Source: Bacillaceae bacterium JMAK1 (GTDB lineage: Bacteria; Bacillota; Bacilli; Bacillales; Marinococcaceae). From it: a DNA stretch of 64,000 bases. A program made the position numbers and the translations under genes. The stretch is from positions 372,001 to 436,000 of the forward strand of contig JIBW01000006.1 in the NCBI GenBank assembly GCA_012970285.1, read 5' to 3'. Positions 11,372-26,627 of this stretch are shown here, piece by piece. Below the pieces are notes generated by a model. That model was not told the origin of the DNA. It worked only from the letters and a program-made list of their open reading frames with translations, and ran no database searches. The first letter of the stretch is position 1. Every line of letters starts with the position of its first letter.

Positions 11372-11402
11372 GGCTGCCGTGCAGGGCAGCCTTTTGTTTT
11401 TT
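11372..11402 (+). terminator. terminator of rap-phr cassette
   Basis: A GGCTGCC/GGCAGCC stem (11372-11378 with 11385-11391) is followed by TTTTGTTTTTT. Confidence 0.85.
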
Positions 11403-11428: not shown

Positions 11429-12850
11429 TTAATCGGTATGCTCTTCTCGCAATTGTCTAATCACATCTTGAATACGGTCCCTCGATTCCACAACCTCTGC
11501 TCGTTTTTCAGACGTCGTTTCATCACTCACTTCTTGAATGAGATTTGCTCGTTCTCTTATTAGTTGCCTCAATTCATTAATTTCATCTGGTTCCAATTCA
11601 TTATTTTCAATCACAATTTCAACGGCTTCGGTCATTCGTGAGTTCTCTTGGTTTCTTAAGGTGGAGACATCATTTCGTAATTCTCGAAGCTCATTTTCGA
11701 TGTCTAATTGATCTTCACTCGTTGCAATCAATCCATCTCTTGCCCACCAAATCCAAGCAAATTGACTAATCTGATCGAGCCAAGTACCGGTCACTTCTTC
11801 ATCTAACTCTTGTGCTGTATACACAGAAGAATAATTCCCACCGCTTACCTCTGCAACTTCTTGAAGCTGCTCGTGCTCATCATCAGCAATATCAAACCCT
11901 AGAATATTAACTTCAAAGTCAATCCCTGCTTCTGGAATCGTTTCTGCCACCGCGACTGGATCACCACCACACGTTTCAATGCCATCGCTAATCACATAGA
12001 TGAAGTTGATTGAGTTTTCATCTGCTTCCTCAATCAAGTCTTCTTTGGCTTGCTCCATTGCATCCGCAAGTGGTGTCCATCCTGTCGGTTCAATTGGATC
12101 AACCGCTTCAACGAATTCACGATCATTGATTGGTGATAATGGATAGACATTTTCGATGGCTTCACATGACTCCGTCTTTCCATCATTTGTATTGTCACCT
12201 TCATGACCATACGCTTGCACTAAAACATTCGTTTCATCAGGAATATTTTGAACAAAAACTGCGATTGCATCTTTCGCTAGATCCATCTTCTGTCCACCGT
12301 CAACTTGCCCGGCCATACTTCCACTCGCATCAAGAAGAATGGCTACGTTCACTTCTTTTTCCATCTCTTCTTCAAGCTCTTCATCTTCTAACTCAACAAT
12401 TGACCTGCCATCAGGTAACGTCAGCTCCGAAAACTCGACCTCATAGTCCTCAACCCGTTGCAGCACTTCTTCATGGTTAGCTCCCAATTGATAAACGGTA
12501 AAGTCGAGCCATTCTTTCATCGTCCGTTCAGCGCCATCTTCTTGCACAATTGCCTCGAACTCTTGAAGTGCAATTTGCTCGGCTTGATCGTATGAGTCCA
12601 CGATCGTCTCCTCGTCAGGAAGATGTTCAGCCGTTAATTCTCCCTCACTGGAAGTTAACACACCTTCTGCCGTCAAATCGACCGCTGGCACATCCGTCGT
12701 GATTGTCTCCTCACCATCTACTTCTTGAGCCTCTTCATTCTCTACGCTTTCCTCAGCTTCTTCGGTTCCTTCACTGTTGTCATTACATGCCGCAAGTAAC
12801 AACACGAAAAGCATAGCTACCATACTACTTTTCCACCTGGAAACACTCAC
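11429..12850 (-). CDS. VWA-domain lipoprotein of the Tad locus
   Basis: A 473-residue lipoprotein: basic N-terminus, hydrophobic segment and lipobox LLLAAC with the lipidated Cys at about residue 22. A very acidic linker leads to a von Willebrand A domain (about 168-360). The MIDAS motif DASGSMAG is intact; ISDGIETCGG follows later. The final 120 residues are a predicted coiled coil of Glu/Arg-rich helices. It is similar in plan to YwmC/YwmD-type secreted VWA proteins. The start at GTG 12850 is supported by AGGAAGGGG nine bases upstream; the longer frame to 12907 would put the signal peptide internally. It is the last gene of the locus and probably an extracellular metal-dependent adhesion or assembly factor. 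Confidence 0.8.
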   Translation of the reverse strand: MSVSRWKSSMVAMLFVLLLAACNDNSEGTEEAEESVENEEAQEVDGEETITTDVPAVDLTAEGVLTSSEGELTAEHLPDEETIVDSYDQAEQIALQEFEAIVQEDGAERTMKEWLDFTVYQLGANHEEVLQRVEDYEVEFSELTLPDGRSIVELEDEELEEEMEKEVNVAILLDASGSMAGQVDGGQKMDLAKDAIAVFVQNIPDETNVLVQAYGHEGDNTNDGKTESCEAIENVYPLSPINDREFVEAVDPIEPTGWTPLADAMEQAKEDLIEEADENSINFIYVISDGIETCGGDPVAVAETIPEAGIDFEVNILGFDIADDEHEQLQEVAEVSGGNYSSVYTAQELDEEVTGTWLDQISQFAWIWWARDGLIATSEDQLDIENELRELRNDVSTLRNQENSRMTEAVEIVIENNELEPDEINELRQLIRERANLIQEVSDETTSEKRAEVVESRDRIQDVIRQLREEHTD

Positions 12851-12893
12851 GCTACCAAACCCCTTCCTAGCTGAAAAACAAATTAAATTCGAC

Positions 12894-14270
12894 CTATGAG
12901 ACCTCACTTCTTAACTCTTCTAATTGTGCCACTTCTTCCTCAAGCTCTTCAATATCACTTTCTTCCTCTTCTTCTTCGAGCTGATTCTCTAGAATTTCAA
13001 TTTGTTCATCCAACGCACGCCTTTGATAGTTAGAATCTTCAACACGCTCCGCAAATGCATACGCTTCTTCAGGATCTAAAGCGAGATGCGCATAAAACGT
13101 CAGCTGAATCTCACGTTCGTTTAACGAGCGTTCTTCTTCAATTTGTTGACTATACGTGAGAAGTTCTTCACTTTCATCCTCAATGTTGTGTTGCTCCATT
13201 CGAACATATGAATCATCGGTCTCAAGTTCTAGAATTTCTTCGCCACGCTCTTGCAGGTGAAGTTGATAAGCGACTTGAGCAACTTGATCTGGATACTCTA
13301 ACAAATAATCTTCATAGTGATCACTAAGAACAACGAGTTCAATATATAAAGAATCATCAATGGATCGATGAGGTTTGACAAGTTCAAGCAAAGAGAATGC
13401 TTCTTCATATTCTCCTTGATAATAATACTCTAACGCTTCCACATACTGATTAGCGATGTCTAATTGTTCATTCACTTCTGTCGCGTGGTCCTCTTCAACC
13501 TCTTGAACATGGGCTTCTTCAGTTGAACCTGCGAACCCGACTGCATAGACGATTGCACCGACCGCGATGACGGCCGTAGCGAGTAATCCTACACGCTTCC
13601 CTCGATTTGGTTTCTTAACTGGTTGGGCTTGGTTTTCATAATACGTCGATTGCACGCTCGTAATCTCTTTACGAATCATGTCTAGAATTTGATCTAACGA
13701 TGTCGCTTCTACAATCGTGGTCACGACATGCTTTTCATTCTGAGGGGCTTTCTTAATCAACTCTTCTTCTGACGCCTCATAAAAGTCTTTATCTTTTACT
13801 AGAGAAAATAAATAAACAAGCTGCTTCTGTACGAACGACAATTCATTCGATTCCTGTTCAACGTCAGATTGATTAGAGAAATGAATCGTCTTAATTGATC
13901 CTAACGCTTTTGTTTCATTGTGTTCTTTAGAAAATACGAGATTATGAAGGTCAAACGATGTCTCAACCTCCGTTTGTTCTGAGAAATAGTTATAGGACTC
14001 TATCAGTCCTTCCGCTGCACGTAAACGTACAAGCACATCTTCTTGGCGCAATGCAACATAGGGTACATGATCTTCTAATGCCCAAGTAAAGATCATTTGA
14101 TTCCCTTCATGAACCATTGATTTGACCGGAAGTGTGTATGGACGCTTTTTCTTCATATACGATAAATCGTTCATGGTCGCACTTTGGACGAACGTATCTT
14201 CAACACGCCATTGCACATACTCAGTATTAAGTGTTAATTCACCATGATTAAATGGTACCGTCTTCTTCAT
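12894..14270 (-). CDS. EssB/YukC-like single-pass membrane protein
   Basis: A 458-residue bitopic protein. An N-terminal cytosolic part of about 220 residues contains VLVRLRAAEGLIE and a FDLHNLVFSKEHN segment that resembles the degenerate kinase fold of EssB/YukC ('hENLVFDeN' type motif). One transmembrane helix (about 227-247) is followed by an acidic all-helical extracellular part with TPR-like elements and a terminal Glu-rich coiled coil. That three-part plan and the C-terminal pattern (DPEEAYAFAERVEDSNYQRRA...) fit EssB. EssB is a core type VII secretion component, so its place in a pilus operon is unexpected. The start at 14270 has AGGAG eight bases upstream. The homology is my reading, not a search result. 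Confidence 0.55.
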   Translation of the reverse strand: MKKTVPFNHGELTLNTEYVQWRVEDTFVQSATMNDLSYMKKKRPYTLPVKSMVHEGNQMIFTWALEDHVPYVALRQEDVLVRLRAAEGLIESYNYFSEQTEVETSFDLHNLVFSKEHNETKALGSIKTIHFSNQSDVEQESNELSFVQKQLVYLFSLVKDKDFYEASEEELIKKAPQNEKHVVTTIVEATSLDQILDMIRKEITSVQSTYYENQAQPVKKPNRGKRVGLLATAVIAVGAIVYAVGFAGSTEEAHVQEVEEDHATEVNEQLDIANQYVEALEYYYQGEYEEAFSLLELVKPHRSIDDSLYIELVVLSDHYEDYLLEYPDQVAQVAYQLHLQERGEEILELETDDSYVRMEQHNIEDESEELLTYSQQIEEERSLNEREIQLTFYAHLALDPEEAYAFAERVEDSNYQRRALDEQIEILENQLEEEEEESDIEELEEEVAQLEELRSEVS

Positions 14271-14309
14271 CGTCATCTCTCCTAGGTTCATCCGACCGGA
14301 TCGTATCAG

Positions 14310-14465
14310 CTACCCTGTTTTAAAGGCTCGTGTGTAAAACACAAAACATAAAATAATCATGAGAATAAATGAAATGTTAATCGATTGACGTTGCACCATG
14401 TCATAAATAAATAACGGAGTGAGTAAAACCAGTGCACCTAAAAATATCCAGAAAAAAATCTTCAT
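14310..14465 (-). CDS. 51-aa two-helix membrane protein of the Tad locus
   Basis: A small gene between flp and the EssB-like gene. It begins MKIFFWIFLGALVLLTP and has two hydrophobic helices (about 4-21 and 30-46) separated by a short polar loop (YDMVQRQS), ending in a basic tail. AGAAGG lies eight bases upstream. I recognise no family. Its size and position suggest a small accessory subunit of the envelope complex formed by its neighbours (inference). Confidence 0.6.
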   Translation of the reverse strand: MKIFFWIFLGALVLLTPLFIYDMVQRQSINISFILMIILCFVFYTRAFKTG

Positions 14466-14495
14466 CTCCTACACCTTCTTTACTAACAAGTTGAA

Positions 14496-14518
14496 GCCCG
14501 ACGGTTTTTACGCCGGGC
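14496..14518 (-). other. stem-loop downstream of flp, no U-tract
   Basis: An eight-base GC-rich stem (14496-14503 with 14511-14518, one G-U pair, seven-base loop) sits nine bases after the flp stop. No T-run follows on the transcript, so it looks like an mRNA 3'-stabilising or processing element that would raise flp message relative to downstream genes. Confidence 0.5.
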
Positions 14519-14527
14519 CTAGTCGTA

Positions 14528-14695
14528 TTACTGAGCAATCGCATCTGCAATGTCAGAGAACATTTGCATGATGTTGTCTCCTAGTAACGTTAACGTAGTA
14601 ATAGCTACAACCGCAACCAGGGCGAGAATTAACCCGTACTCACTCATTGATTGTCCCTTTTCATCATTCCAAAAGTTTTTTAAGAACTTTAACAT
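14528..14695 (-). CDS. flp: Flp-type major pilin
   Basis: The 55-residue structural pilin. The prepilin site is NDEKG followed by QSMSEYGLILAL: cleavage after Gly14 leaves Glu at +5 and Tyr at +6, the Flp signature. A 20-residue hydrophobic stretch and a short helical tail complete it. It would be processed by TadV, assembled by TadA/B/C and displayed outside the cell. A stem-loop lies just downstream. This gene is too short for many gene callers. Confidence 0.93.
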   Translation of the reverse strand: MLKFLKNFWNDEKGQSMSEYGLILALVAVVAITTLTLLGDNIMQMFSDIADAIAQ

Positions 14696-14715
14696 TTTAA
14701 TTTCCTCCTATTAAT

Positions 14716-16488
14716 TTAATTGCCAAACAATCTATTGAATCCATTACTAATGCTTTTTCCGACACTACTTGCTCCATCACTGATAGCACTTCCAACACGA
14801 CTTGCTCCATCACTGATAGAATTGCCAAGGTTTCTCACTCCATCTACTGTTGAATTCCAAGCATTTGAAGCTTTGTCACCAACCCAATTAAGAGCTTTAC
14901 CAATTGGCTCACGATACCTAATTATTAATCCAGCACCTGTTGCAACCACTCCTACAGCTGCAGCCGCTATTCCTACAGGAGTAACACCTCCTGATAATGC
15001 CGAAACCGTAAACGCGGCTGAACCAATACCTTCTAGTACTGAACCTGTACCATCTAGATAATTCCCCTCACTAAAATGATTATACGATTCATAGGCACTA
15101 ACACCCGTACCTACAATACCAAGACCAATTCCAGCTCTCTTGGCAATCGTACCCCATAAAGAGCTTGAAGGGGCACTTGAAGCAGCATTAGCTACGTTTG
15201 CGGCAGCATTTGAACCACTCGCAGCAGGAATTGTGGGTGCATTTCCCATTGAAGCGTTGAAAACGTTACCAGTAAAAGCTGCTGCCCTATAATCTCTCCA
15301 TGATTTAGCAGTATCGAATGCACCTGCTGTAAACCCTAGACCATCCATTACGCCATCGAGGCCATCAACATTGGCAAATCCCATTATAGGAGTAGCTATA
15401 GACAATGCATAATTCACAGTATTAACAACCTGATTAGCTCCTGAAAAAGCATTTGGGTTATGTCCTAACTCTTCTGCTGTTTCTACAATTGATCCAAATG
15501 CATTACGCTGATCAACGATAGCTTGTAGAACACTATCAACACCTATTGCATGATCTCCACTACTGGAAAACAGAAAATTACTAACTGATTGAAGATTACT
15601 CGGTTTAGCAGTTACTGAGCCTAGTTCAGAAGCAGCACCAGAGACCGTTAATTGCGTCATATGGTCACGGTTAAAGCCAAACATCTGTTGTTGAAAATGA
15701 CTATTAACCATCGAATTCATCGTTGGATAATAATTATTATTCAAGGAGTTATGTGACCAAATGCCATATAATCCTCCTAGACCTACTTCGATGGCATTGC
15801 CCTGACCAGGCAAACCTTCTTCACCTGCACCAATTCCTCCTGAACCTATACCTAAAAGACTTCCTGGACCTGGAATTCCTCCTGGACCTATACCTAATGG
15901 ATTTCCTGGACCCGGAATTCCTCCTGAGCCTATACCTAATGGACTTCCTGGACCTGGAATTCCTCCTGGACCTATACCTAATGGATTTCCTGGACCTGGA
16001 ATTCCTCCCGGTCCTATGCCTAATGGATTTCCTGGACCCGGAATTCCTCCCGGTCCTATACCTAATGGATTTCCTGGACCTGGAATTCCTCCTGGACCTA
16101 CACCTAATGGATTTCCTGGACCTGAAATCCCTCCTGGACCTACACCTAATGGATTTCCTGGACCTGGAATTCCTCCCGGCCCTACACCAACTTCACCACC
16201 AGAGGGTCCTTCTGGGTCCGTACCTCCAGAACCACCTCTTGGAGTACCATTAATATCTGACCAACTAGGTGCCCCCGGCGTTCCTCCACCTCCAACGGAT
16301 GGTCCAGAACTTCCAGAGCTAGAGCTACTTCCGCTCCGAATGTTGTTTTTTTCGTCTGCGCCGTCTAGACCTACACTAGGTGGGTCTATCGTTTCCTCTG
16401 CATGCACATACGAGGTTATACTTAGCGGCACCGCAGATATTAGCAGTGTAATGAGAAACGCAATAAGAACCTTATTACACTTCCTCAT
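14716..16488 (-). CDS. secreted Gly/Pro-repeat protein with glycine-rich C-terminal half
   Basis: About 590 residues. A signal peptide (MRKCNKVLIAFLITLL..., cleavage near YVHA-EE) leads to a Ser/Gly-rich linker, then eight tandem 14-residue units of type GIGPGGIPGPGNPL and one degenerate unit (about residues 101-220). The second half has an all-helical segment, then Ala/Gly-rich hydrophobic helices (GIGLGIVGTGVSAYES and GIAAAAVGVVATGAGLII) and a C-terminus with repeated AISDGAS-type heptads. The C-terminal half recalls the membrane-active middle of type VII-exported toxins, but no toxin domain is seen. The start at 16488 follows AGGAGG by eleven bases. It lies between the paralogous pair and flp. 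It may be a pilus tip or surface adhesin, or an exported effector; function unknown. Confidence 0.65.
   Translation of the reverse strand: MRKCNKVLIAFLITLLISAVPLSITSYVHAEETIDPPSVGLDGADEKNNIRSGSSSSSGSSGPSVGGGGTPGAPSWSDINGTPRGGSGGTDPEGPSGGEVGVGPGGIPGPGNPLGVGPGGISGPGNPLGVGPGGIPGPGNPLGIGPGGIPGPGNPLGIGPGGIPGPGNPLGIGPGGIPGPGSPLGIGSGGIPGPGNPLGIGPGGIPGPGSLLGIGSGGIGAGEEGLPGQGNAIEVGLGGLYGIWSHNSLNNNYYPTMNSMVNSHFQQQMFGFNRDHMTQLTVSGAASELGSVTAKPSNLQSVSNFLFSSSGDHAIGVDSVLQAIVDQRNAFGSIVETAEELGHNPNAFSGANQVVNTVNYALSIATPIMGFANVDGLDGVMDGLGFTAGAFDTAKSWRDYRAAAFTGNVFNASMGNAPTIPAASGSNAAANVANAASSAPSSSLWGTIAKRAGIGLGIVGTGVSAYESYNHFSEGNYLDGTGSVLEGIGSAAFTVSALSGGVTPVGIAAAAVGVVATGAGLIIRYREPIGKALNWVGDKASNAWNSTVDGVRNLGNSISDGASRVGSAISDGASSVGKSISNGFNRLFGN
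15853..16188 (-). repeat. 42-bp tandem repeat, eight units (14-aa Gly/Pro repeat)
   Basis: Eight in-frame units with few substitutions (Val/Ile at position 2, Pro/Ser at 4, Asn/Ser at 12). The near-identity at DNA level suggests recent expansion and likely copy-number variation between strains. Confidence 0.9.
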
Positions 16489-16635
16489 AGAGACTGTCAC
16501 CTCCTAATTAACATATTGAGTTTTCTTCACACTACTTCCAAAATGACTAATCACTAGCAAATTCAACAGCTTGTTTTTAAGGAGAATTATTACTAGACAA
16601 TCGAACCACCCCCTTTTGAAACAAAAGTGCTGTGC

Positions 16636-17529
16636 TTATCTAGAATAGTTACTTGATAATATCCAAGTGCGATCAATCATGATGTCTAGCTGCTCTTGAA
16701 ACCGTTCTTTATCCGTAGGCTTATTTTCAAGAAAATGAAGAAAATCTTTTTTTGATTGCATTGATCTGCCATAAATAGTGTTTGTTTCTCGAATAAGGCG
16801 TGGAGATGCCTTTTCTGCATCCCTCATCTCACTTACCACCTTCCGATAAGAGTACCTTCCAATAACTTTCCTAATGCTCCGCTTGTGCTTTCGGAAAATT
16901 CGATACGCCTCTTCACGTGTATACTCTCCATTGAAAAATAGAAGTCGCTCCAACTCATTGCGATGGGTTGTCCGTTCCTCTACTAAATTGATCATGTCTA
17001 ACAATTCTTCTTCCGTGATTTTATCTGCTCGTCCAATAAACCTTTTTCGATCGAGCAGCTTCGTACTCACCTCCTTTAAATATCCCCCGACCTTTTCCAA
17101 GTCTTTGAAATACTTCAGATGCTGACTTATTACCTCTTGTTCTGATTCATTAAAAGGGTTTGGTTGTTGATGCGTGAGCTTCGTTAAGCTTTCTATTTCC
17201 ACTCTTCTAAGCTCTGGATCACCTTGTCTTATATCAAATTCAAATTGACTATCCGGCTCTTGAAAAAGCGTAAGTCCAAAAACTGAATAAACGCACCTAC
17301 GTACTTCATCCGCATTTGTTACAACGTCACCATTGTTATAAAGCACAATTAATTTAGAATACAATGGATCCTTAGGCATTTTAGAGAATAGATGACGATA
17401 TTCTCTACTTTCTATTTTGATCGGTATGGACATATCTGCACGTTCTTTATTTGATAAATAAGGTTCATACGCCTCTAGATAGACCCCTTCTGCTTTTGAA
17501 AACCCCGGATATTTTATACGGTGTAACAA
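16636..17529 (-). CDS. unknown protein, paralogue A of tandem family
   Basis: A 297-residue soluble protein with no signal peptide or membrane helix. The N-terminal motif YPGFSKAEGVYLEAYEPYLS, then EYRHLFSKMPKDPLY, a central THRNELERLLFFNGEYTR and a basic FRKHKRSIRKVIGR are all shared with paralogue B; well over half of the residues agree. The TTG start is supported because AAGGA lies ten bases upstream, exactly as in the GTG start of B. I recognise no family. The position inside the Tad operon suggests a cytosolic partner of the pilus or of the secreted repeat protein. Confidence 0.7.
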   Translation of the reverse strand: MLHRIKYPGFSKAEGVYLEAYEPYLSNKERADMSIPIKIESREYRHLFSKMPKDPLYSKLIVLYNNGDVVTNADEVRRCVYSVFGLTLFQEPDSQFEFDIRQGDPELRRVEIESLTKLTHQQPNPFNESEQEVISQHLKYFKDLEKVGGYLKEVSTKLLDRKRFIGRADKITEEELLDMINLVEERTTHRNELERLLFFNGEYTREEAYRIFRKHKRSIRKVIGRYSYRKVVSEMRDAEKASPRLIRETNTIYGRSMQSKKDFLHFLENKPTDKERFQEQLDIMIDRTWILSSNYSR

Positions 17530-17657
17530 AATCTATCATTCCTTGTTCGTTTTAACTGAATTAGATCTTTACTTCTTTAACTAGCTAAACCTTTTACACG
17601 GTTCCTTCTGCAACTCGTGGGTTAAACCGTTCAGTCTCGTCGTTCCAAAGGGTCGAA

Positions 17658-18551
17658 CTATTTCATATAGTTCCTCGATAAAACCCAAGCTTGATCAAAT
17701 ATGACTTCTAATTGCTCTTGAAACCGCTCTTTATCCTTAGGTTTGTTCTTGAGAAAGTTAAGGAAGTCTTTTTTGTTGTTTAAAGACGTCCCATAAATCT
17801 TGTTCGTTTCTCTAATGATCCGAGGAGTTTCTCTCTCTGCACCCTTCATTTCACTAACAATTTTTCGATAGGCGCTCCTGCCAATGACTGCTCTAATACT
17901 TCTTTTATGTTTCCGAAAAACTTTAGAAACCTCTTGTCGTGTATACTCTCCATTGAAAAATAGAAGTCTCTCCAACTCATTTCTATGCTGTGTCCTTTCT
18001 TCAGCTAGATCGATACCAAATAACAACTGTTCTTCTGTCACTTTATCTGAGCTTTCAATAAGCTTTTTATGATCAAGAATTTTTTTTGCAATGATACTTA
18101 ATGGTTTACCAACTTCTTCTAAGCCTTTGAAATATTCCAGATGGTCACTAACCACTTCTTGGTCCGACGCACTAAATTGTGTCAAAGATTTCTCTTTAAG
18201 TTTGGTTAATGCATCAATTTCTGTTTTCCGTAACGCCACATCGCCCTGTTTTATGTCTAACTTCAATTGGCTTTCTGGTTCTTGATAGAGCGTAAGTCCG
18301 AAAACCGAGCTAATGCTTCTCCTTACTTCATCCTCATCTGTTACAATTTCTCCATCGTTATAGAGCACCATTAATTTGGTATATAAAGGATCATTCGGCA
18401 TTCTAGAGAATAAATGTCGATATTCTCTATTTTCAATCTTAATCGGCAATGACATATCTGCACTTTCCCTCTTTGACAAATATGGTTTAAAAGCATTTAA
18501 GTAAATTCCTTCTGCTTTTGAAAACCCCGGAAAATTCATATGGTTTGACAC
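17658..18551 (-). CDS. unknown protein, paralogue B of tandem family
   Basis: A 297-residue protein, same length as paralogue A and collinear with it along the whole chain (FPGFSKAEGIYLNAFKPYLS at the start, KDKERFQEQLEVIFDQ at the end). It starts at GTG with AAGGA ten bases upstream. The intergenic DNA on both sides of it is also related (17530-17657 and 18552-18690), so the duplication unit was gene plus spacer, about 1 kb. No family is recognised; the protein is predicted cytosolic and mostly helical in its second half. Confidence 0.7.
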   Translation of the reverse strand: MSNHMNFPGFSKAEGIYLNAFKPYLSKRESADMSLPIKIENREYRHLFSRMPNDPLYTKLMVLYNDGEIVTDEDEVRRSISSVFGLTLYQEPESQLKLDIKQGDVALRKTEIDALTKLKEKSLTQFSASDQEVVSDHLEYFKGLEEVGKPLSIIAKKILDHKKLIESSDKVTEEQLLFGIDLAEERTQHRNELERLLFFNGEYTRQEVSKVFRKHKRSIRAVIGRSAYRKIVSEMKGAERETPRIIRETNKIYGTSLNNKKDFLNFLKNKPKDKERFQEQLEVIFDQAWVLSRNYMK

Positions 18552-18641
18552 AACTAATCATTCCTTGTTTGTTTTAACTGGATTGACACTTTTGCTCCTA
18601 CGGAGTGTTCTACTTATTTAACTTAACTAGCTAATCCTTTT

Positions 18642-18845
18642 TCACGACCTCGTCTGCAACTCGTAGGTTAAACCATTCATCGAATCTGTAGGTTTCTTAG
18701 AATACAACAATCGATACTCACTGTTTTTTATGATGACTGGTAGTGATAGAACCGCTTGCTCTCGTTTAGCTAAATACGGTTGATAAGCGTTTAAATACAT
18801 GCCATTCGCTTTCGAAAAGCCTGCGAAATTCAAGAACAGTGACAT
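18642..18845 (-). pseudogene. truncated third copy (C) of the tandem family
   Basis: A 67-codon frame whose first about 55 residues (FAGFSKANGMYLNAYQPYLA...EYRLLYSKKPTDS) match the start of paralogues A and B. It then runs straight into DNA homologous to the spacer found downstream of the other copies (CTGCAACTCGTAGGTTAAAC on the plus strand, compare 17612-17630), giving a nonsense tail. This is an internal deletion that removed about 240 codons. Its ribosome site (GAGAGGGTG) is still present, so a short peptide could be made. Confidence 0.7.
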
Positions 18846-18893
18846 CCCGCATCACCCTCTCTATGCTTACCTAAGGGCAAACTCTTTGAAAAC

Positions 18894-19349
18894 TTAATCG
18901 TCGCTCTCCTCTTCTTCTCCGCCTTCAAAGTTTGAATCATCGAGACTCGCAGAGGCTGAGGCTTGAACTTCGGTCTCGTATTGATTAAACATCGCCATGA
19001 AGAATAACGGAGCGGTTGCACTTGCTTCTAAGGTGACGCGATTTCTAGAGGCATCAATCGTTAAGTTACGTATTGAAGCTTCTTCCATGTTCTGTGTTAA
19101 ATAGCGGGTCGCAATAGCACGGACTTCGTTATCATTTAACGAAATCTCACCCGATTCTTCCCACAACTCTCGGTCATAGGCATCTAGCGTTGCAACGGTG
19201 GCAGCATCAACTGCACTTGATAGTTTCGTATGATGATAGATAGTCATGCCACCATCGATGAGCAGTCCCCCAAACGCAAGAACAAAAATGATAATGCCTG
19301 CTGCTAAGGGATACACGCCGCCTTCTTCATCGTTTAGCCATCGCTTCAT
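18894..19349 (-). CDS. tadG: TadG-like pilus protein
   Basis: A 151-residue protein with the TadG N-terminal plan: short basic/acidic leader MKRWLNDEEGGVYPLAA, one hydrophobic helix (about 14-32), then an extracellular domain and a very acidic end (EGGEEEESDD). The EEGG junction resembles a prepilin site, but Glu at +5 is missing. AVDAATVATLDAYDREL is the DAAALA-type motif of the family. Its ATG overlaps the tadE stop by four bases (ATGA). It is much shorter than Gram-negative TadG, lacking the VWA part, which may be supplied by the VWA lipoprotein at 11429. Confidence 0.78.
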   Translation of the reverse strand: MKRWLNDEEGGVYPLAAGIIIFVLAFGGLLIDGGMTIYHHTKLSSAVDAATVATLDAYDRELWEESGEISLNDNEVRAIATRYLTQNMEEASIRNLTIDASRNRVTLEASATAPLFFMAMFNQYETEVQASASASLDDSNFEGGEEEESDD

Positions 19350-19798
19350 TCGTCATCTCGCCCCCATATGTGATAGCTCGACGTATGCTCGATCACGTAG
19401 GATGTTGGAATGTTTGTACCAGGTATACCTACTGGAAACCGGAATTCATAGGACACGGTCGTTTGGAATTGATCTCCGTTAACGACTGACGAGACTTGGC
19501 CTTGATTAATGTTCAATCCTTGACTTAACGTCGATTCTGCTGTTGATTGTGCAACTTGTATCATTTGTCCAGGGTTTGCCTCAAGATCGGCACTGATCGC
19601 ACTGCCAGCGCGAGCGCCTTGATTAGCGGCAGAAACTACAATAATTTGTGAGTACACAAAATACCCGAGTAATAGTACACCAATCGCAATCATCAACATA
19701 ATCGGCGCTACAAGGCCGAACTCTGCAAGTGATTGCCCTTCTTCCCTTCGCCAAAATCGTTTCGGCCTAGGACTTACAGTTGCGGATACATTTGCCAT
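19346..19798 (-). CDS. tadE: TadE-like minor pilin
   Basis: A 150-residue pseudopilin. Prepilin site REEG followed by QSLAEFGLVAPIMLMIAIG: Glu at +5, Phe at +6. One hydrophobic helix is followed by an extracellular domain starting with ANQGARAGSAIS, the usual TadE motif. The start at 19798 is preferred to the longer frame at 19828; either way it overlaps the end of tadV by about 25 bases. It is processed by TadV and thought to initiate or cap Flp pili. Confidence 0.82.
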   Translation of the reverse strand: MANVSATVSPRPKRFWRREEGQSLAEFGLVAPIMLMIAIGVLLLGYFVYSQIIVVSAANQGARAGSAISADLEANPGQMIQVAQSTAESTLSQGLNINQGQVSSVVNGDQFQTTVSYEFRFPVGIPGTNIPTSYVIEHTSSYHIWGRDDE

Positions 19799-20235
19799 AC
19801 CGTTAACACACTCCCTACAGTAATCCAAAGACTAAACGGAAACGCTGTGTTCATTTGATTTTTTGCCAAGTGATCTCGTCTGCGTTGTCGATGCCTAACA
19901 ATGAGTACGATGATTGATACGAGGCCTCCAATGAGTACAATAATGATTGAACTGTACAGAATAAATGGAACACCCATAATGGCACCGATTGCTGCCATTA
20001 ACTTCACATCACCAGCACCGTAAGCTTTCATTAAATAAAAACAAAAGAAGATTGCAAACCCAATAATCATCCCAAGCAAACTCGTAAACAGACCATCTAA
20101 TCCGTACATAAAACCGTTATGCGTTACACCGATGACTGTAGCTGATAACGTTAACCAATTAGGAATTTTCCACGTTCTTAAATCAATAATTGTTGCGATG
20201 AGCAGTGTTGTTGCTAATAGGAAGATTGAAACCAT
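19774..20235 (-). CDS. tadV: prepilin peptidase (TadV/CpaA, A24 family)
   Basis: A 153-residue polytopic membrane aspartic protease with about five hydrophobic segments. Both catalytic aspartates are visible: Asp in ATIIDLRTWKIPNW (about 18) and Asp in GAGDVKLMA (about 76). The N-terminal methylase domain of large PilD enzymes is absent, as is usual for TadV. It cleaves the leader of Flp, TadE and perhaps TadG at the membrane. Confidence 0.92.
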   Translation of the reverse strand: MVSIFLLATTLLIATIIDLRTWKIPNWLTLSATVIGVTHNGFMYGLDGLFTSLLGMIIGFAIFFCFYLMKAYGAGDVKLMAAIGAIMGVPFILYSSIIIVLIGGLVSIIVLIVRHRQRRRDHLAKNQMNTAFPFSLWITVGSVLTVWQMYPQL

Positions 20236-20247
20236 GGGCTCCGCCCC

Positions 20248-21144
20248 TTAATTCATTGATAAGATAAAGTCCATCACACCTAAAATGGCTGGACCGAGAA
20301 GGAAGATCGCCGTAGCCGGAAACGCTAAGAGCAAGAGCGGGAGGAATAACTTCATTGATGCTTTCTCCCCGAGTTCTTGGGCTTTTTTCTTACGCTGTTG
20401 CCACACTTCACTTGCTTGATTACGAAGAACTCTCGTAACACCTGAAGCCCCTCGTTCAAGGTTCTGAGAGACTGCCGATACGAAACGGTTCACCTCATCA
20501 ACTTGGCAACGTTCAGCCAATCGTTCTAATGCTGTAATTTGGGAGACACCGACCGACACATCACGAATGACCATTTGCAATTCGTCAGCAAGAACACCTT
20601 TTTTCTTATCCGCAACTTCTTTCATTGCAGGCACAAGGTTTAATCCCGCCTCACTCATAATTGCGATTGCATTGATGACATATGGTAGCTCTTTCTTAAT
20701 TTGATCTTTCCGTCTGCTTCCTAAAATCTTTAACCAATGTTCAGGAAGAATATAGCCCATGAGTGCGGTCATCATAGCAACTAGGAATAGCATCGGACTG
20801 CTAGCAACAACTCCTAGAAAGAGAAAGTAACTCATCAACCCCACCGCGGTCATCATTTTCATCGTCAAAATGTCTTCCACACGGTACTTCTCTGCTTTTC
20901 CTGCCATTTGGATTTTGGTCTCAAGTTGTTCTCTTCTTTCAATCGATAACCGAAAGTTAACGAGTGAGAGCATTCTCATCACAGCAGGTGTTGCTTTACG
21001 AATGGTAAAGCGGCGTTCTTCTTCAATGAGTACTTCCTCTTCTACAGCGAGACGTTTCTTAATGCTACTTGCTTCCACCCATTGCTTTGGTGTTAACAGT
21101 AGAACAATAAACAGAAACATCAATGAGGCTATGATGATGGCCAC
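20248..21144 (-). CDS. tadC: Tad inner-membrane platform protein TadC
   Basis: A 298-residue type II secretion F-domain protein: N-terminal helix, basic cytosolic part, paired helices near 95-140, the soluble F domain (LPYVINAIAIMSEAGLNLVPAMKEVA, about 160-250), and a C-terminal helix pair. GTG start behind AAAGGAGG. With TadB it forms the platform that couples the ATPase to pilus growth. Confidence 0.88.
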   Translation of the reverse strand: MAIIIASLMFLFIVLLLTPKQWVEASSIKKRLAVEEEVLIEEERRFTIRKATPAVMRMLSLVNFRLSIERREQLETKIQMAGKAEKYRVEDILTMKMMTAVGLMSYFLFLGVVASSPMLFLVAMMTALMGYILPEHWLKILGSRRKDQIKKELPYVINAIAIMSEAGLNLVPAMKEVADKKKGVLADELQMVIRDVSVGVSQITALERLAERCQVDEVNRFVSAVSQNLERGASGVTRVLRNQASEVWQQRKKKAQELGEKASMKLFLPLLLLAFPATAIFLLGPAILGVMDFILSMN

Positions 21145-21159
21145 GTCCGATCCCTCCTT

Positions 21160-22068
21160 TTACACATCGATGTTCGTCACCTTTCTACCGATAAAGTAAT
21201 TTGCGACAAGCATTAGCACCGCGGCGAACAACATAAACGTTCCAAGCGTTTGATCGTACATCGGTTGCATATAATCTGGATTTAGCATCATCAAAACAAC
21301 GACAATCCCAACGGGCATAAATGTAAGCAATGATGCTTCCATTTTCTTTTGTGCAGTCGCTACTTTAATTTCTTGTTGTATCATGATTTTGTCTGAAATC
21401 GATTCTGCCGTGTTATCAATAACGTCTGCTAAATTGCCACCCTTTGTTCTCGTCATAATAATGGCATCAACAAATTGGGCAATGTCTTCAATGTCGTGTT
21501 CGTTTCTAAACGTTTGTAACGCATCCTCAACAGGTGTCCCGAGTTGAATATCTCCGTTAATTCGCTCTAATGCATCAAGCATCGGCTTGTCTTTTTGAAG
21601 CTGTAGCTCTCGCGTCATGTCTGTTTCACAACGACGCAAAGCAACTTGGAGGGACGTACCCGCTTTCAATGAGCTTGCCAATGAAAGAATCGCATCTCTA
21701 AATTGTAACAACATGATTTTCTCTTGCTTTTGATGATCGTGATTCGCCTTCACTTTCGGATAGAAAAGGCCTAAAAGAGCAATCAACAGTGCAAAGAAAA
21801 CGCTCCGGAACAACATCATACCTAGTAAGAAAAGAATCAAACAGATCACGGCTGCTTGGAGTATATTCATTCGGCGCTTTGAAGCTTGACGCTCTTCGGC
21901 TGACTGTGTACTGTACACCGATTTCTTTCTACCTTCTAAACGCTTGAATGATTTTTCTAATATTTTTTTCTGTGGCACGGTCCCATAGATGAGTATTTGT
22001 GTGAGTTCAACAATTGCTTTTAACATAATCAAAAGCAGTACCACAATCGCTATATAAGTCAAAAGCAT
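21160..22068 (-). CDS. tadB: Tad inner-membrane platform protein TadB
   Basis: A 302-residue protein with the same F domain as TadC (LQFRDAILSLASSLKAGTSLQVAL, about 120-240), flanked by helices, ending in MLVANYFIGRKV. Typical TadB motif: FVDAIIMTRTKGGNLADVID. It starts at ATG behind GAGGAG, 13 bases after tadA. Confidence 0.88.
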   Translation of the reverse strand: MLLTYIAIVVLLLIMLKAIVELTQILIYGTVPQKKILEKSFKRLEGRKKSVYSTQSAEERQASKRRMNILQAAVICLILFLLGMMLFRSVFFALLIALLGLFYPKVKANHDHQKQEKIMLLQFRDAILSLASSLKAGTSLQVALRRCETDMTRELQLQKDKPMLDALERINGDIQLGTPVEDALQTFRNEHDIEDIAQFVDAIIMTRTKGGNLADVIDNTAESISDKIMIQQEIKVATAQKKMEASLLTFMPVGIVVVLMMLNPDYMQPMYDQTLGTFMLFAAVLMLVANYFIGRKVTNIDV

Positions 22069-22081
22069 GCTCGTCCACTCC

Positions 22082-23464
22082 TCAAGAATAGTGATGGACC
22101 ATCGTCGGTTCTTCTAGCGGTTGCTCACCGTAACCTGCGGATTGCCACTTTTCTACTTGCTCCATTGCTGAACCTGTTGGCACTAACCTGCCGACGACTT
22201 TATCTTTTGTGCTTTCTTCTGAGTTAATTTTGAAATGAAACAAGTCGCGATGTTGAATTTCACCTTGCTCTTCACCGAGAATTTCTGTGATCTGCAACAC
22301 GCGTCTCGAACCATCTCGCAATCTTCCGAGTTGAACAATTAGCTCGACCGATGAAGAGATTTGTCTTCGAATCGCTGGAATCGGTAGATCCAGACCAGAC
22401 ATGAGTACCATCGTTTCTAACCTTGATAACATATCGACCGATGAATTGGCGTGCCCTGTCGTTAAAGAACCGTCATGACCGGTATTCATCGCCTGCAACA
22501 TGTCTAATGCTTCTCCACCACGAACCTCACCAACAACAATACGATCTGGACGCATTCGAAGAGCCGTACGAACGAGGTCTCGCATCGTAATTTCGCCTTT
22601 ACCTTCCACATTTGCAGGTCTTGTTTCTAGACTGACTAAGTTCTGAATTTGTGTAAGCTTCAGCTCCGCGGAATCCTCGACTGTAATTACACGTTCATGA
22701 TTTGGAATGTACATGCTCAATGCGTTAAGAAAGGTCGTCTTCCCTGAACCTGTTCCCCCAGAGATGACGATGTTGTACTTTGCTTCCACAAGTTTTTGCA
22801 GCCATTCAGCAATCGGCGTGTCCAGTGCACCAAAGTCAATGAGCTTCTCCATCGTAAAAGGATCACTTGGGAACTTTCGAATCGTAATGATTGGTCCACC
22901 TAGAGAGATTGGGCGAATAACGACGTTCACACGTGAGCCATCAGGAAGCCGTGCATCTACGATCGGATTTGCTTCATCAATCTTCCGGTTAATCGGCGCT
23001 ACAATCTTCTCAATAATCGTCAAAAGATCCGCTTCTGATTTGAATCGAATGCGCTCCCCGTCTTCATCATAGGCATAGCCGAGACGGCCATTCTCCTCAA
23101 TAAACACGTCATCGGTACCATTAATCATAATCTCCGTAATGTCTTGCCTGCGTACGAGTGGATCAATAATTCCGTAGCCGATGAGCTGTTGCATAATTTC
23201 ATCCGTAAGCAACTTCCGCTCATCTGTCGTTAACAGCAAATCTTGATGATTCATCGTCTCTTTCTGCTCGAGTGAATACCAAACCGCTGCCCGTAATCGA
23301 TCGTTATTGCTTAAAATCTTATGATCTTTGTTTCCTTGTTTAACAATGTCTTCACGAACCGACTGCTTTAGTTGATCAACCTCAACATCTAAGTCCTCGT
23401 TCCACAGCGCTTCATGTCCTTCATTTTGTCGTTGCTTACGTTTAATCGCTTGTTCGATTCCCAT
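22082..23464 (-). CDS. tadA: Tad pilus ATPase TadA/CpaF
   Basis: A 460-residue secretion ATPase. Walker A is [15 protein letters not shown]; Walker B is [19 protein letters not shown]; the His-box [14 protein letters not shown] follows. The N-terminal half contains the CpaF domain ([24 protein letters not shown]). It forms a cytosolic hexamer that powers Flp assembly. Start and tadZ stop share a base (TAATG), indicating coupled translation. Confidence 0.95.
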
Positions 23465-24717
23465 TACGCAAGCACCCCTTTTCTTAAGCCGTTGCGTTTC
23501 GCTACTTCTTTCTTCTCGAACATCGGCTCAATTAAGTTTGCAATACTGCGGTAATGCTTATTAATCTTTAGCGCTGGCTTTTCTGCCATCACAATGCCAC
23601 GGTTTGCGTACCCTTGTACTTGCTCGTATTTATGTGGAATCACTGCTGATACTTTCATGGACAACATGGATTCCATTTCAGAAATCGGGAATCCAATTGA
23701 ATCATGGTAAGCGTTAATGATAAGATAACGATTTTGCAACGGGCGATGAAGCTTACGAATAATATCCACAGAAGATAACATCGACCAGTTTGCTGCAACA
23801 TCTGTCGTTAAGACGAAGAACAAATCTGTCGCATTACTCATTAATGAAATGTTACGTTCAGACAAGTCTGTCGAAGAATCAACGACGATCATGTCATAGT
23901 CTAGCCGTTGCAATGCTTCCATAATTCGGTCTGTATGATCGAGCGATAAAGCTGCCATCTTCAGCGGCGACCCTGCACTTAGTACACTTAATTTCTTCCC
24001 TTGAAGGCTGACCGTTTCAATGGACTGGCGCAATACTTCATCAAGCTCCTCGTCGTCTTGACGACCTTGCTCCAAGTAAGTGACGACATCAGATAGACCT
24101 TTTGTTCCTTGTGGAAGATTAAATGCAACAGAAACATGACCGAACAGGGCGAAGTCTACGAGTAATACGTTTTTGTCTTTTAACGTCAGTTGAGCGGCTG
24201 TGTTAACCGCAATGGTCGTCGTACCGACGCCTCCTTTTGGAGAATAAAACAACGAGATCTTTTTGTCGGTATGCTCTTTTGCAGCTGCATTTACACTCGT
24301 GAAAATATCTTTATCTTGGCCGATTGGCGTGAATGATAACATCTTCTGAGTGTACGTTCCCATCGGTGTGTACTTATAAATGAGATCAACGTTCTCATGA
24401 ATCAATTCCGTTTCTCGAACGATATGAAGTTGCTCAGCAACGAGGATGATCTTCTGGGTATTATAGTTTAATAAATTGCGATACCACGCTGGATCTGCAT
24501 TCGTAGCCTCGACGTTAATCAATAGAATATCAACGGTATGGCTTCCAAGATATTCGTACAAATCTGTTAATGTTTCCCCTTGAAAAATGACTGATACTAA
24601 ATCTTCACTTTGTTCGTAATACCGGTTAATATCTGCGCGGTAACTTGGGTCTTGATCAATAATTGCGACCGTTAATGACTCACTTGAATGTCGACCTGGT
24701 ATAAACTCTGCATCCAT
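23464..24717 (-). CDS. tadZ: Tad localisation ATPase TadZ/CpaE
   Basis: A 417-residue protein. A degenerate receiver-like domain (about 1-125: TVAIIDQDPSYRADINRYY, then DILLINVEA) precedes a MinD/ParA ATPase domain with deviant Walker A FYSPKGGVGTTTIAVNTA and IVVDSSTDLSERN. It is thought to place the pilus machine in the cell. ATG start behind AAAGGAGGTG. Confidence 0.9.
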   Translation of the reverse strand: MDAEFIPGRHSSESLTVAIIDQDPSYRADINRYYEQSEDLVSVIFQGETLTDLYEYLGSHTVDILLINVEATNADPAWYRNLLNYNTQKIILVAEQLHIVRETELIHENVDLIYKYTPMGTYTQKMLSFTPIGQDKDIFTSVNAAAKEHTDKKISLFYSPKGGVGTTTIAVNTAAQLTLKDKNVLLVDFALFGHVSVAFNLPQGTKGLSDVVTYLEQGRQDDEELDEVLRQSIETVSLQGKKLSVLSAGSPLKMAALSLDHTDRIMEALQRLDYDMIVVDSSTDLSERNISLMSNATDLFFVLTTDVAANWSMLSSVDIIRKLHRPLQNRYLIINAYHDSIGFPISEMESMLSMKVSAVIPHKYEQVQGYANRGIVMAEKPALKINKHYRSIANLIEPMFEKKEVAKRNGLRKGVLA

Positions 24718-24735
24718 GAATTGGCACCTCCTTTT

Positions 24736-25461
24736 CTAGCTTTCTAGTGTTGACTCTCTTATAATCTCCAAATCGATTGACTCGCCATTTGAAGGGTTTA
24801 AGGCTAAGCTTAATGACCCGTTTTCTACCGCATTTCCGAGTGCCACAACCTCTTGTGGGTTAACGAGTAGCGTCACATGTTGCACCGTTGAATCTTTTGC
24901 CAAATCTGCAAGTGAATCTTCATTGTAGGACTCTACTTCATACACTTCTGCGAACTGAATGAGCATTCGAGAGTAGAACTCCCCTTGTCCATCTTCTGCT
25001 GTGTACACAACATCAACGTGGTCTCCTTTTTGCAAAGAGTTATCCACAGCTGCTTGTGGACTCAACGCTAATGTGTATAACCGCATTTCGTCAGGAATAA
25101 ATTCCGACGAATCAATATTTCCTGAAGCTGTTACATATTCTGCAGCATCCTCTGGAAAAACAATCTGCTCGGGATCTAACAACACCGGTTTTCCAGATTC
25201 AATCTCCTGACGTGTAATCGCACCAATCACAGATTCTGGATCTTGAACCCGGTTTGGAAGAAGCGTTTCTACCGCACTTGCTTCTACGTTCACTGTCGTT
25301 AACATCTCTTCTGTAATTTCTGTTTGCTCAGCAATCGTTCGATCACTTACGACAACCGCTGTCGTCTGTTGCAAAGAATCTAAATATTGAAAGGTTAAAT
25401 AAGCAATTAACCCGGCACTGCCCAGTATAAGAATTAAACGCCAACTTAATTTAGCAAACAT
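24736..25461 (-). CDS. cpaB: Flp pilus assembly protein CpaB/RcpC
   Basis: A 241-residue protein with one N-terminal anchor helix (about 7-25) and a SAF domain (TEITEEMLTTVNVE...AITRQEIESGKPVL) followed by the RcpC domain (YTLALSPQAAVDNSLQKGDHVDVVYTA). In Gram-negatives it works with the secretin. No secretin is expected here, so it probably faces the wall side of the membrane. Confidence 0.88.
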   Translation of the reverse strand: MFAKLSWRLILILGSAGLIAYLTFQYLDSLQQTTAVVVSDRTIAEQTEITEEMLTTVNVEASAVETLLPNRVQDPESVIGAITRQEIESGKPVLLDPEQIVFPEDAAEYVTASGNIDSSEFIPDEMRLYTLALSPQAAVDNSLQKGDHVDVVYTAEDGQGEFYSRMLIQFAEVYEVESYNEDSLADLAKDSTVQHVTLLVNPQEVVALGNAVENGSLSLALNPSNGESIDLEIIRESTLES

Positions 25462-25489: not shown

Positions 25490-26254
25490 TTACGAAACCA
25501 ATTGCCCACGCTCTTTTGAGAACACAGCGTAATCAAACGCTTCTTGTCGTGCACGTAAATCAAAATACATGCTCATATACAATGAGCCGATAAATGGCAT
25601 CATAACAAGGTATAGTATTGTATTAATTACGATATCCACCCAGAAAATTGGCGTTCCAATCATGACTAGAATAAGGATTTCTGCACCTACGATGAGTACA
25701 TTGGATGCGATAATGATGAGCAGTAACAAACCTAGTATTCGCCAGAATGAGCCTATCACGAGTTGACGGCTTCGCATTAAGGATCGAAAGATTCCTTTAT
25801 TTTCAAAAGCGATTGTCTGAGCAAATAAACCTAGATAAGCGTAGATGATTAAGCCTGGTATAACGAGGAGCGCTAACCCAAACGTCGTAAGCACCGTATA
25901 AAGAATTGTCGCAACAATAATCGTCGGAAATACTAACGCAGTCTTTTTTAAACCAGCTAGTATGCGCTTCTTAAAGGGAAGCTCTCGATCGAGCAATAAC
26001 AAATAAAATACATGAACACCTAGCACGCTAAACATAAGAGCTTGATTAAAAATTCGCAATGCCTCAAGCTCAACAACACTTACGCCTAGTTGATTCATGT
26101 AATCAAAAAATAAGAATAATGCCGTTATAAGAGGAACACTGATGAGTAGCGTCCCTGGTATAGAGTGTACGAACACTCGCTTTCCGTTTTGACTCATGTT
26201 GCGCATCAATTCTTTAAACGATTGTGGTTGTGTTTGTTCCTTACTAATGTCCAT
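25490..26254 (-). CDS. polytopic membrane protein of the Tad locus
   Basis: A 254-residue protein with about six hydrophobic helices. The C-terminal stretch YMSMYFDLRARQEAFDYAVF is typical of the membrane domain related to GPDPase-type/DUF7847-like proteins of unknown function. ATG 26254 (AAAGGA eight bases upstream) is preferred; it overlaps the DUF192 stop by eleven bases. Role in the pilus locus unknown. Confidence 0.7.
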   Translation of the reverse strand: MDISKEQTQPQSFKELMRNMSQNGKRVFVHSIPGTLLISVPLITALFLFFDYMNQLGVSVVELEALRIFNQALMFSVLGVHVFYLLLLDRELPFKKRILAGLKKTALVFPTIIVATILYTVLTTFGLALLVIPGLIIYAYLGLFAQTIAFENKGIFRSLMRSRQLVIGSFWRILGLLLLIIIASNVLIVGAEILILVMIGTPIFWVDIVINTILYLVMMPFIGSLYMSMYFDLRARQEAFDYAVFSKERGQLVS

Positions 26255-26627
26255 CTTTACCTTCCTTTCTTCCACCGGGATCTATAAAGAGGCATTGCCC
26301 TTTTGTAAGTCCATAGTCTAAAACTACACCACTTTTAAGCTCCAATATCCCGTATACCGTCTTTTCGTACGGCAACATTTTCCACGGCGCAACATCCTCA
26401 AACACTTCTTTAACTCGATACTCATTATTAGTAATTTTCTCTAAATAAACACAGTCAATTGGGAATTTCATGAACCATGTATGAACTTGCTGGCATGGAT
26501 ATATGAATATCCCTTCTTGATCTCCCAAGTTATTTTTCCCAAGTAGTCCTTTTAATCTTGAAGCGTATCCATTTGCGATTATTAACTGATCCACAAGAAC
26601 TGTTTTTGATCCTTGAATCCAGACCAT
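26244..26627 (-). CDS. DUF192 family protein
   Basis: A 127-residue protein with the DUF192 pattern: RLKGLLGK early, WFMKFPIDCVYL in the middle (family: fWMknt.ipLDi.f), ILELKSGVV and TKGQCLFIDP at the end. No signal peptide, although many DUF192 proteins are exported. It is the first gene of the long Tad transcription unit. DUF192 genes are known as neighbours of Tad clusters in other Gram-positives; the role is unknown. Confidence 0.8.
   Translation of the reverse strand: MVWIQGSKTVLVDQLIIANGYASRLKGLLGKNNLGDQEGIFIYPCQQVHTWFMKFPIDCVYLEKITNNEYRVKEVFEDVAPWKMLPYEKTVYGILELKSGVVLDYGLTKGQCLFIDPGGRKEGKDGH

Follow-up and report, generated by a model that had tools for sequence, protein, structure and literature searches.

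Accessory genes of a Tad pilus locus in Bacillaceae bacterium JMAK1: an exchangeable gene pair resembling effector and immunity, and an EssB-like protein

What a Tad (Flp) pilus locus carries behind its pilus genes, and whether these additional genes act with the pilus, is the question raised by a locus of Bacillaceae bacterium JMAK1. The locus lies on the minus strand of a 64,000 nucleotide stretch of contig JIBW01000006.1 (assembly GCA_012970285.1, positions 372,001 to 436,000), which as a whole is called the window here. Seven additional genes on one strand 3' of tadG had been described in a first-pass annotation, which proposed a single surface system. All seven open reading frames (ORFs) are open on the minus strand within 11429..18891, at the positions reported, and a 67 aa 5' remnant of a third duf gene had been overlooked. 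The genes encode rep, a repeat-stalk protein, two copies of duf, a partner protein of about 300 aa (both working names), the Flp pilin, a 51 aa protein, an EssB-like protein and a VWA lipoprotein. As judged from sequence, the accessory set is composed of a sub-module A, rep with duf, alongside which VWA recurs in other families, and a sub-module B, the EssB-like gene.

The duf-rep block has been exchanged between near-identical Tad genes and neighbours within the genus of the window. Between the window genome (G000) and its relative G008, the Tad genes are 95–100% identical, with a synonymous divergence (dS) of 0.08–0.33, and EssB and VWA are 95–96% identical (dS 0.13–0.17). In contrast, rep, compared over the C-terminal contig piece, is 47% identical (dS 1.0; non-synonymous divergence, dN, 0.47) and duf 53–54% identical, with a dS of 2.4 or saturated (dN 0.35–0.37). 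Synonymous divergence this high indicates replacement by another allele, and not only fast change. Compared with a further relative, G009, dS is 0.40–0.68 for the Tad core, 0.28 for dufB and 1.0 for rep. The duf remnant 3' of tadG is a 5' part in the window and a 3' part in G009. Both relatives have the gene order of the window, with one full duf rather than two, that of G008 being spread over two contigs with rep divided between the tadA contig and the EssB contig.

Where more rep and duf pairs could be compared, the two diverge together. The sample consisted of eight loci found with a profile of the rep C-end (REPC) and the locus of Lentibacillus salicampi. Mantel comparison of rep and duf identities gave r 0.90 for ten pairs (p 2e-4) and r 0.87 for the seven loci with TadA (p 0.001), with a partial r of 0.81 when TadA was held constant (p 0.001); the correlation with TadA itself was 0.66 for rep (p 0.03) and 0.55 for duf (p 0.07). 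After one each of the near-duplicates G225/G122 and G045/G089 was dropped, r was 0.81 for eight pairs (reached by 4 of 5000 permutations) and also 0.81 for six loci, both without and with TadA (14 and 15 of 720 permutations, respectively). Correlations with VWA in this reduced sample were 0.17 for rep and 0.01 for duf.

Unpaired duf genes accompany this co-variation. The rep and duf of G139 are closer to those of G122, from another family (50% and 38%), than to those of G166 from the same genus (21–25% and 14–15%), while its TadA is nearly equally identical to both (73 and 72%). The spare duf of G139 has 50% and 39% identity with the two partner dufs of G166, and two spare dufs in G166 are 30% and 34% identical to the partner duf of G139. 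Decaying copies are seen as the remnants in the window and G009, small pieces in G139 and a split duf in G225. Cognate co-variation together with orphan partners, as expected of toxin and immunity genes, was thus found in the group I loci. As divergence co-varies and G139 and G166 both have orphan dufs, each of the type found in the other genome, rep and duf appear to form cognate pairs, the simplest reading being an effector and its immunity protein.

The rep protein has no Pfam family, and in particular no pilin family and no LXG domain was found in it. A hydrophobic core is present near the N-terminus of 17 out of 17 rep proteins, and a hydrophobic segment begins at most 165 residues from the C-end in all 16 that have a C-end (two are weak, with mean hydropathy 1.4–1.5), a 133 aa ORF of Lentibacillus being left out of these counts. 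The earlier label of repeat protein says too little about rep, which is the partner that is exchanged in what seems to be a cognate pair with duf. At E 0.001 the REPC profile matches 19 of 299 genomes; at E 0.01 it falsely matched tadG in four stretches. Fifteen of the matches were looked at in their neighbourhoods, all but those in G088, G104, G280 and G311, and 13 of these are in Tad-type loci (G000, G008, G020, G018, G017, G225, G122, G139, G166, G045, G089, G253 and G055). The other two are an LXG protein (G041) and a phage tape-measure-like protein (G219). In the eight Tad-type loci newly found, a duf-like gene lies directly 3' of rep and VWA is present in every case. The rep-duf unit is duplicated in G166. 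The short contig of G225 carries VWA, a TadE-like gene, rep and duf and stops before tadA. The rep of G020 does not score above shuffled sequences with the REPC profile of the Tad-locus proteins (5 of 1000 reach its score), and is identified by its position, its N-terminus (38% identity over 42 residues) and the A7 profile (20.9 bits, reached by 0 of 1000 shuffles). Tandem dufs beside one rep are found in the window, G020, G017 and G018. Three further loci (L045, L046 and L048) have behind their Tad genes a different secreted hydrophobic protein (510–517 aa), a 101 aa membrane protein and a lipoprotein that appears OmpA-like by eye, perhaps an analogue of the rep module.

No known family could be assigned to duf. 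Pfam hits were weak or below the curated cut-offs, the best PHROGs match had E 0.01, the best PDB match had E 0.04 with alignment A8 and there was none with A2, and PADLOC gave none. The dufs of the window (group II) are joined to group I by hhalign (83%, E 8.5e-6, with 40 column-shuffled controls at or below 0.7%), a plain search with the group I hidden Markov model (HMM) giving no link to them. Group III (G017 and G018) is weakly joined, at 59% to group I and 14% to group II. A first scan of the contigs with duf gave no match. In G107 a Tad locus ends with a relative of duf. Further weak matches were found in G049, G087, G300, G180 and G104; beside the last four no Tad genes were recognised, and the G180 match itself looks by eye like an AraC regulator. 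In G059 a duf relative and a partial second copy (L041:8160-9533) are near genes that by eye resemble minD, mreB and rplU, with no Tad locus recognised around them. The duf family thus exists away from Tad.

The second sub-module is that of the EssB-like protein, which the first-pass annotation had correctly placed at the level of family. Although there is no direct match to YukC (PF10140) in Pfam, an HMM built from 13 EssB proteins of other Tad loci, without that of the window, finds the window protein at 58.7 bits (E 1.5e-17; best of 500 shuffles 9.9). By hhalign it is matched to these 13 at 98.9% over 442 columns, and to three EssB proteins of type VII secretion systems (T7SS) at 92.6% over 158 columns. 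All ten other members of its alignment (A5) match YukC, and the profile of the window protein with these ten relatives matches the PDB structures of EssB (4ann, E 4.8e-11; 4ano, 2.4e-9; 2ynq, 7.4e-6), the best match being to the conjugation protein traF (8cba, 2.1e-11). The N-terminal pieces alone score weakly, at 12.3 and 17.6 bits. Its 465 residues include one hydrophobic, presumed transmembrane segment at about 236–254. The predicted topology has the EssB/YukC layout of a cytosolic domain, a single transmembrane segment and an outer helical part. These profile comparisons suggest that the protein belongs to the YukC/EssB lineage as a divergent representative.

Searched at E 0.01 with a profile of the window EssB and three of its relatives, the 397 genomes of the order gave matches in 15, including G000 and G008. 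The EssB-like proteins of G063, G368, G163, G076, G183, G174 and G397 match YukC (E 2e-21 to 1e-27). Neighbourhoods were covered for 14 of the 15, all except G029. Three matches adjoin an EssC-sized gene (G308, G220 and G260), and beside those of G397, G322 (at a contig end) and G392 neither Tad nor EssC-sized neighbours were recognised. Scanning the genome contigs gave ten EssB loci, all of which have the order tadV, DUF6382-FHA, PP2C, kinase, EssB. Three of these (L110, L115 and L117) were taken to be the loci of G076, G174 and G368, which with G063, G163 and G183 makes 13 distinct loci. DUF6382-FHA and kinase genes are 5' of EssB in all 13, PP2C is in 12 (there is none in G063), and all 13 proteins match YukC. 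The tadA gene is present in all six loci for which more upstream DNA was taken (G063 and five others), the remaining seven having Tad pseudopilin and tadV genes and partly tadB or tadC. Adjacency to Tad is conditional here, as it is for rep, since both kinds of locus were found through their own profiles. DUF6382 was not found in G000, G008, G009, G010, G020, G018 or G017, with G368 positive as the control.

Markers of type VII secretion are scarce in these genomes. The EssC query was a 1473 aa protein of G308 beside YukC and WXG100 genes, named from its size, place and relatives, without a Pfam scan, and it matches itself. Best matches were 87–99 bits over about 230 residues, which is the level of FtsK/SpoIIIE, in G368, G163, G076, G183, G174 and the three genomes of the window's genus (91 bits in G000, G008 and G009), so that no EssC-type ATPase was detected in these eight. 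Positive scores were 594 bits in G063, 616 in G322 and 2020 in G260. WXG100 proteins had no match at E 0.01 in G000, G008, G009, G163, G183 and G174, scored below the cut-off in G368 and G076, and were above it in G063, G322, G308 and G260. Only one of the nine genomes with a Tad-associated EssB that were tested, G063, therefore has T7SS markers, and as neither marker is above cut-off in the other eight, EssB probably serves the Tad pilus.

The scores of PF10140 itself are bimodal. It matches 83 of 299 genomes at E 1e-4 (two under the cut-off), missing G000 and G008; most scores are 304–438 bits, with the best match in seven genomes at 41–87 bits. Five of these seven are Tad genomes (G076, G183, G163, G174 and G063). 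The other two, G208, which also has a high-scoring YukC, and G184, have their low hits in look-alike clusters. That of G184 (L194:4322-17594) contains genes assigned by Pfam to conjugation, for a type IV secretion system coupling protein, TrbL, a TraG P-loop protein, a CagC/TrbC-like pilin and a lysozyme/NlpC protein. Its EssB-like ORF was found at 41 bits in the genome search and with a local profile, yet YukC was not listed in the direct Pfam scan. The cluster of G208 (L193) resembles it. These two clusters and the traF match hint, at the level of sequence, at one pseudokinase-type adaptor for T7SS, conjugation and Tad machines.

The two sub-modules do not always occur together. In the family of the window (f1), sampled by tadA, 17 of 29 genomes had a hit and all 17, with 18 loci, were looked at. 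A secreted hydrophobic rep or rep-like protein is present in 13 of the loci, VWA in 7, duf in 6 and EssB in 3, and 5 have none of these, one of them (L044) being a stretch at a contig end. The rep of G020 was counted by place and N-terminus and that of G022 by blastp, and two of the six dufs are of the weakly joined group III. All EssB-positive loci of this sample are from the genus of the window. One indivisible module, as had been proposed, is therefore not what is found; rep-duf and EssB-VWA behave as separate sub-modules, and five loci show none of the accessory genes looked for. As to conservation of the neighbourhood, which had been suggested as a check, genes of these kinds recur next to Tad genes in further families of the order; in the G020 locus, where TadA is 75% identical, EssB and VWA are absent while rep, duf and a small transmembrane protein are retained. 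The distribution independent of tadA that would have spoken against one system is seen in part, between the sub-modules, and less so for the rep C-end matches, of which 13 of the 15 examined are in Tad-type loci. Both sub-modules also meet outside the genus, since the 14 kb contig of Lentibacillus salicampi (L114) carries tadV, DUF6382, kinase, EssB, VWA, the 133 aa rep C-end protein and duf, with tadA not on the contig.

A mechanism that would connect these parts can be outlined. In this locus, two accessory elements would be added to a Tad (Flp) pilus of Gram-positive type. From its signal-like N-terminus, rep is predicted to be exported through the general (Sec) pathway, and its C-terminal hydrophobic segment would anchor it in or at the envelope, with the stalk extending outward. 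The rep protein would be the specific, changeable end of the system, each form having its matching duf. The most likely target of rep would be the membrane of a touching neighbour, with duf, perhaps together with the small transmembrane protein, shielding the producer, and strains that swap the cassette would keep old dufs as spare immunity. The EssB-like protein would be an envelope scaffold taken from, or common to, type VII secretion. EssB of T7SSb, a pseudokinase, touches FHA domains of EssC according to PMC11217815, and by analogy the FHA gene beside EssB in Tad loci suggests the same kind of contact. In the other Tad loci EssB would link the FHA protein and kinase, as signal input, to the Tad machine. 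Within the window's genus, where DUF6382-FHA was not found, EssB and the VWA lipoprotein would probably remain as a structural adaptor. Export and display of rep, its toxicity, immunity by duf and the adaptor role of EssB are what we infer from sequence. As a whole, this combination of a Tad pilus, an exported and exchangeable rep with its matching duf as effector and immunity, and an EssB envelope adaptor is put forward tentatively, as a reading with somewhat less than an even chance of being correct.

Several observations weigh against it. Between the window and G008, the genes beyond the locus, rap (dS 0.43) and adh (0.66), are themselves further apart than the Tad core is, so that the dS contrast is clear in the case of duf and moderate in that of rep; the rep alignment also includes repeats. 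The co-variation test covered group I dufs, to which hhalign alone links the dufs of the window, whose own pairs lay outside the test. Beside the secreted hydrophobic proteins of L039, L045–L048, L196 and L197 no duf could be recognised, and Tad loci in other genera that have kept rep and duf lack EssB. An LXG toxin that depolarises membranes has a membrane protein as its immunity partner (PMC7456083), and the dufs of the window have no membrane segment. The tail of rep was tried as an LXG toxin tail and rejected as proof: the window-centred profile of the rep C-end scores 31.8 bits with the LXG tail (0 of 1000 shuffles), the Tad-locus profile scores only 10.5 (best of 500 shuffles 12.9 in one run), and a phage tape-measure protein also scores, at 21 and 13 bits. 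Finally, co-variation alone would also fit a cognate chaperone.

This last point leads to the main rival, in which rep is a pilus-associated adhesin or a sleeve crossing the wall, duf its cognate cytosolic chaperone or assembly factor, and the diversity comes from ligand or phage pressure and not from warfare. It is a serious possibility, albeit one we would expect to be wrong. The dufs of the window are predicted to be soluble and in group I loci duf pairs with its own rep; rep has a signal-like N-terminus and a repeat stalk and is 20 bases 5' of flp in the window; and VWA domains are found at type IV pilus tips (PMC12075869, available part). It is, however, hard to see why a chaperone would occur as orphan or decaying dufs that have no matching rep, and tandem dufs beside a single rep also speak against one. 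Exchange, cognate pairing and the spare and decaying dufs taken together appear to fit effector and immunity best. It is improbable that rep, duf, EssB and VWA are passenger cargo unrelated to the pilus, with the end of the Tad operon an insertion site. Gain and loss of sub-modules among loci and the G059 duf relatives away from Tad would suit cargo, but the Tad-type loci around 13 of the 15 examined rep matches, the EssB, DUF6382 and kinase genes behind Tad genes in 13 of 13 loci (found by EssB), and the lack of any Pfam match to a transposase or integrase family among the ORFs of the block argue against it. That the EssB-like gene is a leftover or active part of a T7SS is very improbable and was rejected, as despite its YukC lineage and the EssC-type protein and WXG100 elsewhere in G063, eight Tad-EssB genomes, including G000, G008 and G009, have neither marker above cut-off, and five Tad genomes have their best YukC match in the low group of scores.

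The locus shares features with several known systems and differs from each of them. The window shares tadZ, tadA, tadB, tadC, tadV, tadE, tadG, cpaB/rcpC and flp with classical tad loci, so that the TadA ATPase, TadB/C, the TadV peptidase, the Flp pilin and TadE/G of such a pilus are all present. The tad operon gene list in the available part of PMC3244431 is without rep, duf, small transmembrane, EssB and VWA genes, which agrees with the earlier statement that the non-pilin genes are outside the classical set. With EssB/YukC of T7SSb the window protein shares one transmembrane segment between an N-terminal domain and a helical part, and the three EssB structures matched; it differs in being in a Tad locus, in a genome with no EssC-type ATPase or WXG100 detected, and in other genera its counterparts follow FHA, PP2C and kinase genes. 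Of the T7SS clusters of Garrett, Higginson and Palmer 2024 (PMC11217815), T7SSg/h have T7-related genes adjoining Tad genes and T7SSe has FHA, phosphatase and kinase genes, the features in common being this adjacency and DUF6382-FHA, PPM phosphatase and kinase; those clusters have an EssC-type ATPase and WXG100, and EssB in Tad loci without them is not described in the part of that paper available. The Tad-like Kil system for contact killing in Myxococcus (PMC12075869, available part) is also a Tad machine with interchangeable specificity parts; there these are minor pilins, whereas rep has no pilin family in Pfam. The LXG toxin TspA and its TsaI (DUF443) array (PMC7456083, available part) is similar in placing a variable effector beside an array of partner genes, and differs in that rep has no LXG domain, the dufs of the window are not membrane proteins and homology of the tail is unsettled. 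An LXG protein (PF04740) followed by DUF443 and DUF4176 genes, with a tail resembling that of rep, is found in G041 (L159:7695-10507).

Gram-positive Tad pili seem to have been little studied, and the accessible parts of the literature on Tad pili gave no description of EssB in Tad loci without T7SS or of a rep-duf pair. Two starting points for tests come out of the locus. One is rep with duf, which in their evolution resemble an effector and its immunity protein; the other is the presence of EssB/YukC in the Tad loci of genomes without a detected T7SS marker, which would separate EssB function from EssC. Cassette and adaptor together may let the cell recognise or attack neighbours. If true, Gram-positive bacteria would have their own equivalent of the Tad-linked killing seen in Myxococcus, and several of their export machines might have one envelope adaptor in common. 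The widest form of the proposal is a Gram-positive, Tad-based contact-dependent antagonism. In it, rep would represent a new polymorphic family of Sec-exported, membrane-acting effectors and duf a family of immunity proteins, also new, and a pseudokinase adaptor of EssB type, common to T7SS and perhaps conjugation machines, would tie the pilus to envelope signalling. This form is unlikely to hold in full.

The positions of the features are given in Table 1. The gaps from tadG to VWA, including the remnant, are 48, 90, 128, 135, 20, 62, 18 and -14 bases. A scan of 11200-27200 found no minus-strand terminator-like hairpin between 18891 and 11429. Promoter-like matches were at the level of chance (28, with 34.8 +/- 6.1 expected), making that scan uninformative. 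The genes from tadG to VWA are presumably co-transcribed.

Table 1. Positions of the Tad locus features in the window
Feature	Coordinates	Strand	Basis
Terminator-like hairpin directly 3' of VWA	11391-11372 (11372..11391)	-	Hairpin scan
VWA-domain lipoprotein	11429..12907	-	PF00092, E 8.5e-13; motif positions
Putative EssB/YukC-lineage protein, diverged N-terminal domain, helical outer part	12894..14291	-	Profile comparisons
51 aa protein, two hydrophobic segments	14310..14465	-	ORF and hydropathy
flp, major pilin	14528-14695	-	PF04964, E 6.8e-12
rep: signal-like N-terminus, 14-residue repeat stalk, variable middle, C-terminal hydrophobic segment (from residue 509), amphipathic-looking tail	14716..16500	-	Sequence features
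Block differing between window and G008	14946..18751 (approximate limits)		blastn; dS contrast
42 bp tandem repeat, 8.5 copies, encoding the rep stalk	15832..16188		Repeat scan
dufB, 297 aa partner protein, no hydrophobic segment	16636..17529	-	ORF; no Pfam family
dufA, 64% identical paralogue of dufB, no hydrophobic segment	17658..18551	-	ORF
5' remnant of third duf, 67 aa	18642..18845	-	70% to G008 duf over 46 residues; 57% to dufA over 56
Tad core: tadG, tadE, tadV, tadC, tadB, tadA, tadZ, cpaB/rcpC	18894..25461	-	Pfam; tadZ from ParA-type ATPase domain and gene position
up1, polytopic membrane protein, head of locus	25490..26275	-	Has relatives close to rep and duf elsewhere among Tad loci

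The VWA protein has what we take to be a lipobox (LLAAC) and MIDAS-like motifs (DASGS, TPLAD and SDG), and its relatives adjoin Tad genes in other genomes. Its true start is perhaps the GTG at codon 20 (12850), and because of this internal start the 14 base overlap of EssB and VWA may not be real. The start of the EssB-like protein is likely also internal, at the ATG of codon 8 (14270), 8 bases 3' of GGAG. A 70 aa protein after the duf pair of G020 was likened by eye to the 51 aa protein of the window. In G010, the fourth genome from this genus, the Tad locus is a different one. The tadA, tadC, tadG and rep genes of G009 (L033) look frameshifted, through assembly errors or decay. Beyond the locus, convergent with the VWA gene, is a gene for a Rap-type TPR phosphatase (RapH_N, TPR) at 10110-11252.

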